The notes under the pieces: model-generated | What the model saw: the letters and a program-made list of their open reading frames with translations, nothing else | What the model was told of the DNA's origin: nothing | Database searches by the model: none | Position numbers and translations under genes: made by a program | Virus record (IMG/VR): IMGVR_UViG_3300047508_000359 | Coordinates: 1-20,239 of that record | Reading direction: 5' to 3' (one strand) | From: a virus | Length of the DNA stretch: 20,239 nt | Shown: piece after piece, positions 13,221-20,239 of the stretch | How positions within the stretch are numbered: position 1 is the first letter of the stretch | How the letters are laid out: every line of letters begins with the position of its first letter

Positions 13221-13585
13221 TGCTTCTCTCCTGTCTCGAACTGGGCTAGGGCTTCTTTGGCTCGCTCTGTGATCTGCGTCAGCGTCACTGTGCGGCGCTC
13301 CGATTCGTCTAAGTCAGCGAGCCATCGGGCGAGAGACTCCAGGGGCTCTACGTCGCGGCCGTCTGGGTCTGCTCCGGTGAGGCGGTAGCACTGGGCTAGT
13401 TGGGCTTCGGCTCGCTGTCGCCGCTCCCGTTCTTCACGGACGGCGGCTTCGTGGTCCTCGACGGGCATGACTTCGACGTGTTGTCCTTCGCAGCCCAGAG
13501 CGGTGAGACTTCGGCTGTCCTCGGCCATGCGAGCGCAGCTTGGGCAGATCGTCCACCGCCTCTGCACTCCCTTTGTCTCAGGCAT
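13217..13585 (-). CDS. Hypothetical protein with N-terminal Cys pair and coiled coil
   Basis: This 122-residue product begins MPETKGVQRRWTICPSCARM (one CxxC knuckle), followed by EDSRSLTALGCEGQHVEVMP, where a further Cys and His could complete a zinc site. A coiled coil (EERERRQRAEAQLAQCYRL) follows, then a helical C-terminal region (PLESLARWLADLDESER). The ATG at 13585 lies in an 8-base overlap with the previous stop (ATGCCTGA) and has GGGAGAGG upstream. No enzyme motif is present. It may be a DNA-interacting accessory factor, but that is inference. Confidence 0.7.
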   Translation of the reverse strand: MPETKGVQRRWTICPSCARMAEDSRSLTALGCEGQHVEVMPVEDHEAAVREERERRQRAEAQLAQCYRLTGADPDGRDVEPLESLARWLADLDESERRTVTLTQITERAKEALAQFETGEKQ

Positions 13586-14189
13586 CTGCCTCTCCCTCGG
13601 TAGGCACTATTCGTTGGGGCGGGCACCATTCACCTGGCTCCCAAGGATGTGCGGGGCCGTAGGGTTTGCAGGCGCACATGTCGACCGGGTCGTCCCGTTG
13701 ATCCTCCTCGGTAGGTAGGGCGGCGGCGAGATCAAGGACGTTCTGGAGGTTGAGTTGGGCCGCCATTGACTCGGCGGTCCTCTTGGTCGTGCCGATCACT
13801 CCTCCATCTACCCGGTCTTCGACCTCCCACAGGTCATCGTTCCCAGGACGGGCTTCATAGCGGGTCGCGACCTCCCGCAACTCCGTCTCCCATCTCTTGC
13901 GCTCGGCGGCGATGAGCTTTTCGACGGGTAGCTGTGACTCCGTGCCGTCGAGAACGCCTTCGCTGCCCTTCCGACCGAAGACGTTGACGCCGACGAGCAA
14001 CCCTGCAAGCTCCCACCGCGACAGGCCGCCGCGCTGCGCAAGCCGTTCGAGGGATTGATCGTGAACATCGCGAGCAACCGCACGCAGCGGCTCGACCAGT
14101 TCCCACGGGATCGAAGTGACCTCACCCTTGTCGCGCAGAATCGGAAAGCGCCGTCCCTCCACCGCCTCTTTACTCACCCGCTCAGTCAT
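13578..14189 (-). CDS. Hypothetical protein, 203 residues
   Basis: The N-terminus (RFPILRDKGEVTSIPWELVE) looks like a compact strand-turn-strand, followed by a helical stretch (DQSLERLAQRGGLSRWELAG), then LIAAERKRWETELREVATRY as a coiled coil. A C-terminal part has MAAQLNLQNVLDLAAALPTE. The final segment CACKPYGPAHPWEPGEWCPP holds three Cys and one His that could bind zinc. The ATG at 14189 overlaps the 58-residue gene by 8 bases, and its stop overlaps the next start by 8. Family and function are unknown; the helix pattern suggests a protein- or DNA-binding accessory. Confidence 0.7.
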   Translation of the reverse strand: MTERVSKEAVEGRRFPILRDKGEVTSIPWELVEPLRAVARDVHDQSLERLAQRGGLSRWELAGLLVGVNVFGRKGSEGVLDGTESQLPVEKLIAAERKRWETELREVATRYEARPGNDDLWEVEDRVDGGVIGTTKRTAESMAAQLNLQNVLDLAAALPTEEDQRDDPVDMCACKPYGPAHPWEPGEWCPPQRIVPTEGEADA

Positions 14190-14358: not shown

Positions 14359-14732
14359 GATCCCTCCTCATGGTCGGGGTCCTTGAAGGCGGCGCGGATG
14401 CGCTTTTCAACTTCGCGGCCAAGCCAGCCGCAGGACGGGTGGTCTGCATAAAGAGACTCGCCCTCCTCGTCCTGGAAACCACCGGCCTCCAGTTCCTCGG
14501 CGATTGCCTCTCGGAGCGTCAGGAATAGGGGGCCATCCGTATCCAGCAACCGCTCCCGCTCACGTTCTAGCTCTATGGGGACTGCTGCGGTGAGGGCTTT
14601 TCTGCTCAGGTCGCGATAGAACGCTTTGGACTCGGGACCGGCTGTCTCCCAGAAACCGAACCCCGGCATCCCATCGAAGATCGCCTGAGCGTGCCGCTCC
14701 ACTGCCTCCTCACTTGGCTGGTAGTCAGGCAT
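14355..14732 (-). CDS. Hypothetical protein with PDYQPSEEA start tag
   Basis: The start is the ATG at 14732, with GGAGAGGACCGCA upstream, in an 8-base overlap with the preceding stop. The 125-residue product opens MPDYQPSEEAVERHAQAIFD, a tag shared with two neighbouring genes, and continues with MPGFGFWETAGPESKAFYRD and LSRKALTAAVPIELERERER. The acidic C-terminal part contains ADHPSCGWLGREVEKRIRAA. The Glu-Ala-Val-Glu-x-x-Ala-x-Ala-Ile pattern is widespread in small actinophage and actinobacterial proteins of unknown function. A longer ORF to 14864 overlaps the upstream gene and is rejected. Confidence 0.75.
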   Translation of the reverse strand: MPDYQPSEEAVERHAQAIFDGMPGFGFWETAGPESKAFYRDLSRKALTAAVPIELERERERLLDTDGPLFLTLREAIAEELEAGGFQDEEGESLYADHPSCGWLGREVEKRIRAAFKDPDHEEGS

Positions 14733-14925
14733 TGCGGTCCTCTCCGGGAGCACGACGAACAGACCGGATTCCGGCGAACTCAATCCTAGGCTCGAATGCT
14801 TCACATTCGACCTGACCGTACCTAGCCACGTGCTCCGCTTCGGCAGCACTGTTTGCGAAGACAATCACCCTCTGCGATCCGCGCAGAGCCTCATCGACGT
14901 AATACGCCTTAGTCGGCTCAGCCAT
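14725..14925 (-). CDS. Small conserved-type hypothetical protein
   Basis: From the ATG at 14925, 66 residues are encoded: MAEPTKAYYVDEALRGSQRV, then the strand-helix-strand IVFANSAAEAEHVARYGQVE and EAFEPRIEFAGIRSVRRAPG. The sequence pattern of an aromatic-Val-Asp-Glu start, a strand, a helix with Ala/Glu, and a C-terminal strand ending in Arg-Arg is common among small phage proteins that have no known role. It overlaps the preceding gene by 8 bases and the next by 8. GGGAG, about 9 bases upstream of the ATG, serves as ribosome binding site. A longer ORF beginning at 15069 runs in the overlapping frame of another gene and is rejected. Confidence 0.7.
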   Translation of the reverse strand: MAEPTKAYYVDEALRGSQRVIVFANSAAEAEHVARYGQVECEAFEPRIEFAGIRSVRRAPGEDRNA

Positions 14926-15091
14926 CGGACAGGCTCCCTTCGCCATTGCAGAGAAAACAGGGGACCTGGATCGAGCAGTCTCCATAGCACTCGCCATCGG
15001 ACGAGGTGCGCCCGCAACAGTCCTGGTCGTAACCGCTCCCTTCGCACCTCGGGCAGGGCTTCGCCTCATCGCTCGGTTGGTAGCTAGGCAT
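14918..15091 (-). CDS. 57-residue DnaJ-type zinc-finger microprotein
   Basis: The ORF has the ATG at 15091 with CGGGAGAAC upstream and TGA at 14920-14918. After the shared tag MPSYQPSDEA it has two CxxCxGxG motifs, CPRCEGSG (13-20) and CFLCNGEG (45-52), separated by a Cys-rich loop with Cys25, 26, 35 and 39. The paired CxxCxGxG arrangement is that of the DnaJ cysteine-rich domain, but with two motifs in place of four, so the protein may be a minimal zinc-dependent disulphide-handling or protein-binding factor. It overlaps the next gene by 8 bases. The frame is confirmed by the Cys pattern and by the tag shared with two neighbours. Confidence 0.72.
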   Translation of the reverse strand: MPSYQPSDEAKPCPRCEGSGYDQDCCGRTSSDGECYGDCSIQVPCFLCNGEGSLSDG

Positions 15092-15132
15092 CGTTGTTCT
15101 CCCGGCGGTCCGGGAGCTGCCCGACTGTCTCG

Positions 15133-15369
15133 TTAGGGTCCATAGCTCCCTTTGGTCGGAGGTTTATTCGGTTCAAATAGCTCGGGCCTACAGTCGGGGC
15201 AGCCGTGACACCTACACGTCAGGTCTGGGACCGAGCCGAAACATCCCGGCCTGAGCTTGAAGTGAGTTCCCCTGCAACCCGACGCAAGACCTAGGTCGTA
15301 TGCCATTCGCGACTGCTTGCATACCCCGGTCCTCGCTTCGTCACTCGGGATGTAGTCAGGGGCGGTCAT
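15133..15369 (-). CDS. Cys-rich protein with PDYIPSDEA start tag
   Basis: The start ATG at 15369 is chosen for its GAGGAGACCCA ribosome binding site and because it places the tag APDYIPSDEA at the N-terminus; the frame stays open upstream to an ATG at 15450. The 78-residue product has scattered Cys (CKQSRMAYDLGLASGC), and TCRCHGCPDCRPEL near the end, four Cys in CxCx2Cx2C spacing that could bind zinc. The C-terminus is Pro/Lys-rich and probably disordered. The whole resembles the small metal-binding proteins around it. No family is recognised. Confidence 0.62.
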   Translation of the reverse strand: MTAPDYIPSDEARTGVCKQSRMAYDLGLASGCRGTHFKLRPGCFGSVPDLTCRCHGCPDCRPELFEPNKPPTKGSYGP

Positions 15370-15457: not shown

Positions 15458-15808
15458 TCATTCGGTAGCGGTCTTGAAGTGGTGTAGGGCGGCTCGGACT
15501 TGATCTGCGTCCTCTCCGCGAATCGTCAAGGCCGCCTCAAGCTGGTAGTTGCGGTCAGGTTGGGAGGTGTCCACGGGCAGGAACCGCTCTACGATCTTCA
15601 GCGCGTCCGCCAGCTCCCCAGCTATAGAGGCGGGGAGGACGGGGACGGGGAGCCAGCCATCGCAATCCGCGTCCTCTGGCGTGTCCCAGCCGCAGCTTGG
15701 ACACTGGGTGTCGTCAGAGCCTTCCGCTTCGACCCACCCGCAACTTGGGCAGAACCAAATTGGCCGGGCTCCGCTACTCCCATCCGGCCATACTCCTGAT
15801 GCGTTCAC
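15458..15808 (-). CDS. Protein with tandem CPSCGW zinc ribbon
   Basis: The GTG at 15808, with AAAGGAGAG upstream, overlaps the preceding stop by 4 bases and gives 116 residues. Two identical knuckles, WFCPSCGWVEAEGSDDTQCP and then SCGWDTPEDADCDGW, are about 17 residues apart, forming a rubredoxin-like four-Cys zinc ribbon. The C-terminal half is helical (IAGELADALKIVERFLPVD; then DQVRAALHHFKTATE). A longer ORF reaching 15904 is rejected because the 37-residue gene uses that DNA. Tandem CPSCGW ribbons are common in small DNA- or RNA-associated proteins. The exact role is unknown. Confidence 0.7.
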   Translation of the reverse strand: MNASGVWPDGSSGARPIWFCPSCGWVEAEGSDDTQCPSCGWDTPEDADCDGWLPVPVLPASIAGELADALKIVERFLPVDTSQPDRNYQLEAALTIRGEDADQVRAALHHFKTATE

Positions 15809-15918
15809 GGGTTCTCTCCTTTGGCTGGGGGGTCGGGCTGTTCGGGCCACTGGCAGCGATGTAGTTCGTCCCAGAAGCGGAGTTCCTCGCCGCAGTTGGG
15901 GCAAGTCAGGAGGCTCAT
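15805..15918 (-). CDS. 37-residue zinc-ribbon microprotein
   Basis: A complete ORF runs from the ATG at 15918 (ATGA overlap with the preceding gene) to TGA at 15807-15805 (GTGA overlap with the next). The sequence MSLLTCPNCGEELRFWDELH followed by RCQWPEQPDPPAKGENP contains CPNCGEEL and a third Cys, with a His just before it, which could complete a Cys3His site. It is a tiny zinc-binding peptide. Overlap signals at both ends strongly support that it is translated. Its function is not known. Confidence 0.62.
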   Translation of the reverse strand: MSLLTCPNCGEELRFWDELHRCQWPEQPDPPAKGENP

Positions 15919-16849: not shown

Positions 16850-17534
16850 TGATCTCTCCCTTCTCGGTCGCTTTCAGGTGAGTGAGGAGGTAGGAGCCGA
16901 TGTGTTCGGTGTAGGCGGGTGGGATGGCCTGCGTGAGCGCCTTCCACGGCATCCAGTCGATGCCCATTGCGGCTTGCCCTTCTTCAAGGGAGCGGGCGCG
17001 GCGGACTCGGTATGTGCCGCGCTCTTTGCTCGTCTGCGGGTGGTCGCCGTAGACGGCGATCGGCTTCGGGGCGAGATGGTGGGCGCAGGGAGCGGCGAGC
17101 ATCGGAAAGCTCGTCTCGAACAGGCGGTGCCGCCAGACGTTGAGCCCGAAGGCTGAGCCGCAGAGCCGTGTCGGGTTGACGAGCGGAGCGCCCGGCACGT
17201 TCTCGATGACGTAGGGCAGACCCGTGGCTTGAAGTAGCTCGCGGGTCTCGGGGATCAGATTGACCGCGCCTTTGCCGGCCCCCTTGCCGAAGTGCCGCAT
17301 CGACGTGAACGCCTGACACGGTGGCGAAGCGTGGATGGCGTCGAAGCGGCCGTCCCACAAGTCGTTCTCCAGGAGGTCTTCGAGCACTTCGAGCGCATCG
17401 CGTTCCGTGAAGTCATCACCGCAGTAGTTCGGCTGCGGGTTGATATCCACCCCGACCACGTAGAACCCGGCCTGCTGGTAGCCGCGAGCACTCCCACCGG
17501 CACCGGAGAATAGGTCTAACAGGCGCGGCTTCAC
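16836..17534 (-). CDS. DNA (cytosine-5) methyltransferase
   Basis: The 232-residue enzyme transfers a methyl group from S-adenosylmethionine to cytosine C5 in DNA, most likely protecting phage DNA from host restriction. Motif I is LLDLFSGAGGSARGYQQAGF (5-24), motif IV with the catalytic Cys is SPPCQ (70-74), motif VI is ENV (111-113), motif VIII is RHRLFE (135-140), and motifs IX-X appear as AIPPAYTEHIG (203-213). It is shorter than typical enzymes of 320 residues or more, with only about 50 residues left for the target recognition domain. The start is a GTG overlapping the previous gene by 4 bases, within a 17-bp direct repeat. All catalytic motifs are present, so activity is likely. The sequence target cannot be read. 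Confidence 0.92.
   Translation of the reverse strand: MKPRLLDLFSGAGGSARGYQQAGFYVVGVDINPQPNYCGDDFTERDALEVLEDLLENDLWDGRFDAIHASPPCQAFTSMRHFGKGAGKGAVNLIPETRELLQATGLPYVIENVPGAPLVNPTRLCGSAFGLNVWRHRLFETSFPMLAAPCAHHLAPKPIAVYGDHPQTSKERGTYRVRRARSLEEGQAAMGIDWMPWKALTQAIPPAYTEHIGSYLLTHLKATEKGEINVAA

Positions 17535-19463: not shown

Positions 19464-20239
<776 letters not shown>

Follow-up and report, generated by a model that had tools for sequence, protein, structure and literature searches.

Three neighbouring genes of an uncultured virus of bacteria begin with almost the same short peptide and continue into bodies that bear no detectable resemblance to one another. Common descent of the three 5' ends is in our view probable: a single small helical phage gene would have had its beginning copied, through duplication and mosaicism among small phage genes, and in two of the genes this beginning would now stand before Cys-rich bodies. 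The peptide itself most likely represents a start signature found in a loosely defined set of small phage proteins, several phages encoding such proteins side by side. If the duplication is real, it would provide a readable case of small phage genes built from a working start and a new body, in a part of the phage genome where most genes are without relatives.

The gene block and its start sites

The window comprises an entire viral contig of IMG/VR (20,239 bases), whose genes, as read from the list of open reading frames, lie on the minus strand. Its low end carries head genes, an SPP1-type portal and a large terminase; small genes arranged as a block come next, along with two DNA methyltransferases. 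Genes A, B and C belong to this small-gene block and are separated from the terminase by 5 to 6 kb, preceding it; along the reading direction the order is C, a 19-aa frame, B, X and A:

15369-15133, minus strand: gene C, 78 aa, Cys-rich
15334..15369, minus strand: tag of gene C, ATG ACC GCC followed by PDYIPSDEA
15084..15143, minus strand: 19-aa frame MDPNETVGQLPDRRENNDA, located between C and B; AAGGGAG precedes its ATG, and its TAG overlaps with the B start (ATGCCTAG)
15091-14918, minus strand: gene B, 57 aa, Cys-rich; CxxCxGxG motif present twice, read directly
15062..15091, minus strand: tag of gene B, ATG followed by PSYQPSDEA
14725..14925, minus strand: gene X, 66 aa, MAEPTKAYYVDEA..., untagged, between B and A; its TGA overlaps the start of A (ATGCCTGA)
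14732-14355, minus strand: gene A, 125 aa, ATG at 14732
14703..14732, minus strand: tag of gene A, ATG followed by PDYQPSEEA

An earlier note had reported three open reading frames with a common N-terminal tag, and all three were found on the minus strand at the starts it gave, reading MPDYQPSEEA in A, MPSYQPSDEA in B and MTAPDYIPSDEA in C. That two of these starts might be wrong, which the same note had named as a possible refutation, is unlikely. Shine-Dalgarno-like sites lie 5-8 nt before each ATG (GAGAGG in A, GGGAG in B, GAGGAG in C), and the starts of A and B overlap the stops of X and of the 19-aa frame, respectively; on both grounds the starts are credible. At 25 of the 33 contig gene starts examined, a stop codon stands at base +1 (the ATGA/GTGA type) or at base +5 (the ATGCCTGA type), the arrangement of an overlap with the previous gene, and translational coupling seems widespread in the contig. 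The eight-base overlap of genes with the previous stop makes RTG-NCT-stop a recurrent form of start here, and part of the CCT signal at the tag is explained by this overlap and not by descent. Directly upstream of C, positions 15458-15904 encode a protein with two CPSCGW-type zinc-ribbon motifs, for which Pfam zinc-ribbon matches were sub-threshold only.

A match of starts beyond chance, with unlike bodies behind it

The triple of matching starts is not reproduced by chance. When the N-termini of 41 genes were compared by local BLOSUM62 alignment, the pairs A-B, B-C and A-C scored 41, 39 and 39, and the next best pair 24; in 300 column shuffles that kept the residues of each column, the top-scoring pair reached at most 37 and the third-best pair at most 29. 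At the DNA level, 26 nt of the tag constitute the top direct repeat of the 3-kb region, with three copies, all in frame, of which those in B and C are each 77% identical to that in A. Base agreement between A and B from the ATG is high, as had been pointed out earlier, although the count is 23 of 30 rather than about 24. No other gene of the contig carries the tag, and a scan of 21 other phage genomes or contigs (~630 kb) yielded no set of three unrelated genes with a common start. The starts of 13585 and 14189 also resemble each other (AGAGGCGGTGGA, out of frame), but a similarity of that size could arise among 528 pairs and was discarded.

Behind the tag the proteins diverge completely, in agreement with the earlier description: scores among the bodies of A, B and C do not rise above those of shuffled sequence, alignment rejects the bodies of B and C as paralogues, and no family model matches any of the three. 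In A, AlphaFold2 run without an alignment predicts a helical hairpin for residues 1-50 (pLDDT 71-84), the only part of this protein modelled with fair confidence, in which the tag leads straight into a predicted helix at residues 8-21 and caps it. Assignment of A to the proteins with a PSDAQ...MRAAL domain was rejected, the model of that domain failing to find it. After the tag, B continues with KPCPRC and C with RTGVCK, neither obviously helical, and the alignment-free structure model of C (pLDDT 45) is too poor for use. The description of B as a DnaJ-type zinc protein holds for its two CxxCxGxG motifs (CPRCEGSG and CFLCNGEG) but finds no backing in Pfam or PHROG matches.

The codons of the tag carry information on its history. 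CCT, which accounts for 10% of Pro codons, heads the tag in A, B and C, and AGT, which accounts for 3% of Ser codons, is common to the tags of A and C; these shared rare codons suggest common descent of the tag DNA. Together with the lack of any match among the bodies, they support that part of the earlier proposal in which one start precedes different bodies. Of the third codon positions, 6 of 9 vary, against 4 of 18 among first and second positions (Fisher p 0.034); as a small test, biased by discovery of the case through its peptide, this is a hint only. The peptide may thus have changed less than its codons, a weak hint of selection keeping it, and the tag copies appear from their sequences to be old, none of them recent. 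In C, CCTGAC, which in A makes up the stop/start overlap ATGCCTGA, stands two codons inside the frame, as would be expected if the copy in C had once begun there.

The ancestor in a copied-start history would have been a small helical phage protein beginning [D/E]Y-x-P-[S/T]-x-[D/E]-[D/E]. We take A to be closest to it because its tag runs straight into the predicted helix, where the peptide may still cap helix 1 and supply its first turn. The duplication, placed within the small-gene block and inferred to run from A to B and C, would have been followed either by replacement of the downstream part or by its divergence beyond recognition, with B and C keeping a start of about nine residues before their Cys-rich bodies; the peptide would have been kept either as a working helix cap or by still binding a partner. 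Counted against this reading are that duplication of a whole gene is not visible and that the bodies here show no common ancestry, unlike those of the comparable pairs in other phages described below. The missing match of A, B and C to PHROG 33945, the rejection of A by the PSDAQ...MRAAL domain model, the weak fit of B to the outside signature and the lack of relatives in the collections searched also count against it.

Similar starts on small proteins of other phages

Relatives of the three proteins themselves were not found. The searches covered phages (A, B and C, by tblastn), plasmids (A), IMG/VR (all three together with the neighbour 13578-14189) and 15 records related by terminase (A and B); two weak phage matches were rejected, as they lay inside other genes and not at gene starts. 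No intermediates between A, B and C were seen, there being no relative of any of them in the collections searched. Strict tag patterns gave eight matches in IMG/VR, with no common context, and one in GTDB genomes, and a pattern fixing Pro and a pyrimidine-ended third codon while leaving Ser open gave none in IMG/VR.

The tag is nevertheless, to judge by the starts of neighbouring genes in other phages, apparently not private to this one. Small phage proteins elsewhere, comprising PHROG 33945 and lookalikes, start [S/T/A][D/E]YTP[S/T]x[E/D][E/D]V. In a contig related by its terminase (G014), adjacent genes start (M/V)IDYTPTTEQVR and MAEYTPTTDEMR (L046 19004 and 18697, from a within-genome scan of terminase relatives). 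A tblastn search with the latter of the two led to Microbacterium phage Min1, Pontimonas phage phiPsal1 and Pseudanabaena phage Pan2, and a similar start recovered in an IMG/VR pattern scan pointed to Microbacterium phage Cassita (gp94). The annotated Min1 neighbours orf29 and orf30 (L150 5001-5734), about 3 kb before the terminase, start MSDYTPSTEDVR and MSDYTPSDDEIR and then differ, sharing the initial SDYTPS and part of the C-terminus (AGPWxPV) around a different middle. Contig L113 likewise has neighbours with a common start, at 751 and 1203. In all three pairs, those of G014, Min1 and L113, the bodies still show common ancestry.

The IMG/VR scan with M-x-[D/E]-Y-x-P-T-x-[D/E]-E returned 94 stretches, 80 of which were fetched, and a ribosome-binding site preceded an open frame of at least 40 codons in 25 of these 80. 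Among those 25, several carried [S/T][D/E]YTPTxEEV with an (F)DRWLA motif further on, and others were unrelated proteins; in L092, the start and FDRWLA are separated by a stretch containing Cys. A profile built on eight of the outside starts ranked A 1st, C 2nd and B, more weakly, 9th among 4,060 candidate starts from the window and 26 other loci, ranks that are not fully blind, as the resemblance had been noticed beforehand. The N-terminal signature [D/E]Y.P[S/T].[D/E][D/E] is present in A and C, and B fits it weakly.

PHROG 33945 and its lookalikes thus resemble the window genes in having a similar start on small proteins encoded as neighbouring pairs (Min1, G014, L113), and the Min1 pair lies in a small-gene block before the terminase, as in the window. 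They differ in having Thr where the window proteins have Gln or Ile, and Ser or Thr before Asp-Tyr, which the window proteins are missing; furthermore, the window bodies are mutually unrelated, show no (F)DRWLA motif by reading, and give no match to the PHROG 33945 profile up to E = 10, which rules out membership of A, B and C in that family (Min1 orf29 matches it at 7e-80). The earlier note had named as a refutation that the tag be a normal part of one family including all three genes. This applies in part: the peptide does match a signature with which small phage proteins begin, but the three proteins together make up no single recognisable family and match no model. As a separate observation, the neighbouring tail-region genes at 19986 and 20548 of Streptomyces phage Endor2 (L035) start MGAGLYPPP and MGASIYPPP, and their bodies score low against each other.

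Other explanations for the shared start

A functional peptide tag, that is, a short linear motif taking three different proteins to one partner or place, is unlikely, although it deserves consideration; the targeting or degradation tag suggested in the earlier note would be of this kind. The T4 capsid targeting sequence, one N-terminal peptide that serves different internal proteins, themselves found in the head, and is followed shortly by I/L-x-E cleavage, offers a model, and by analogy the partner might be a protease adaptor, the prohead core or a replication site. As in T4, one short N-terminal peptide stands on several different phage proteins, and its position before three unlike bodies and the excess of changes at third codon positions, as if the peptide were kept, are what such a role would lead one to expect. 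Against it are the small size and bias of the codon test, the restriction of the tag to three genes of the contig, and the occurrence of similar starts elsewhere on small proteins without known address function. Moreover, in contrast to T4, residues 1-30 of A, B and C contain no I/L-x-E site. More doubtful still is the extended form of this idea, in which a transferable N-terminal address tag would have been duplicated onto one helical and two Cys-rich proteins with a common partner in infection, and SDYTPTTEEV starts would be further versions of it. Should the tag reading hold, addresses of this sort may be common among phages, on proteins without an assigned function, and would offer a way into what these proteins do.

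Recent recombination at a short common sequence, swapping bodies behind a common start, would account for the combination of a small-gene block, a common start and unrelated bodies. It is improbable: synonymous sites between the A and B tags have largely diverged, which speaks against a recent copy, and no swapped relative, with the same start and an exchanged body, was found in the collections searched.

Equally in need of discussion is a DNA or RNA element of translation initiation that runs into the coding sequence, on the pattern of the Start-Associated Sequences. Those of cluster K mycobacteriophages (PMC3203893) are repeats that precede the start codon, as are those of cluster EF Microbacterium phages (PMC7302621). 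The likeness consists of short repeats tied to the starts of otherwise unrelated small genes in the non-structural half of a phage, and the frequency with which starts in this contig sit on the stop codon of another frame, ATG/GTG-CCT openings recurring through that overlap, could be read in the same direction. The window repeat, by contrast, lies behind the start codon, and the sequences upstream of the three genes resemble one another no more than do those of other gene pairs, with similarity ranks of 26, 352 and 381 of 528. No conserved element of ~13 bp, as Start-Associated Sequences have at the ribosome-binding sites of several genes, is shared by A, B and C, and the tag was rejected as a Start-Associated Sequence, these upstream parts having no common element. 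In addition, the likeness resides in the coding part, where the copies differ mostly at third positions, and in C it is displaced by two codons. An initiation element is therefore very improbable and, as an explanation, largely refuted.

Chance, or convergence on a good helix cap, is the least credible explanation of all. P-S-D-E is indeed a favourable helix start, but the shuffle null, the scan of 21 other genomes or contigs, the rare codons common to the copies and the not obviously helical continuations in B and C all argue against it.

Elsewhere in the contig, and unrelated to the tag, the adjacent genes at 17534 and 17824 have a common junction, GGGAGCGGTGGCGTGA, and the genes preceding them both end ...GAVA. 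At the contig end, 19460-20239 encodes a perhaps truncated protein with a long Ala-Glu-Ser-Trp-rich repeat (SAAESAAWSAES...).
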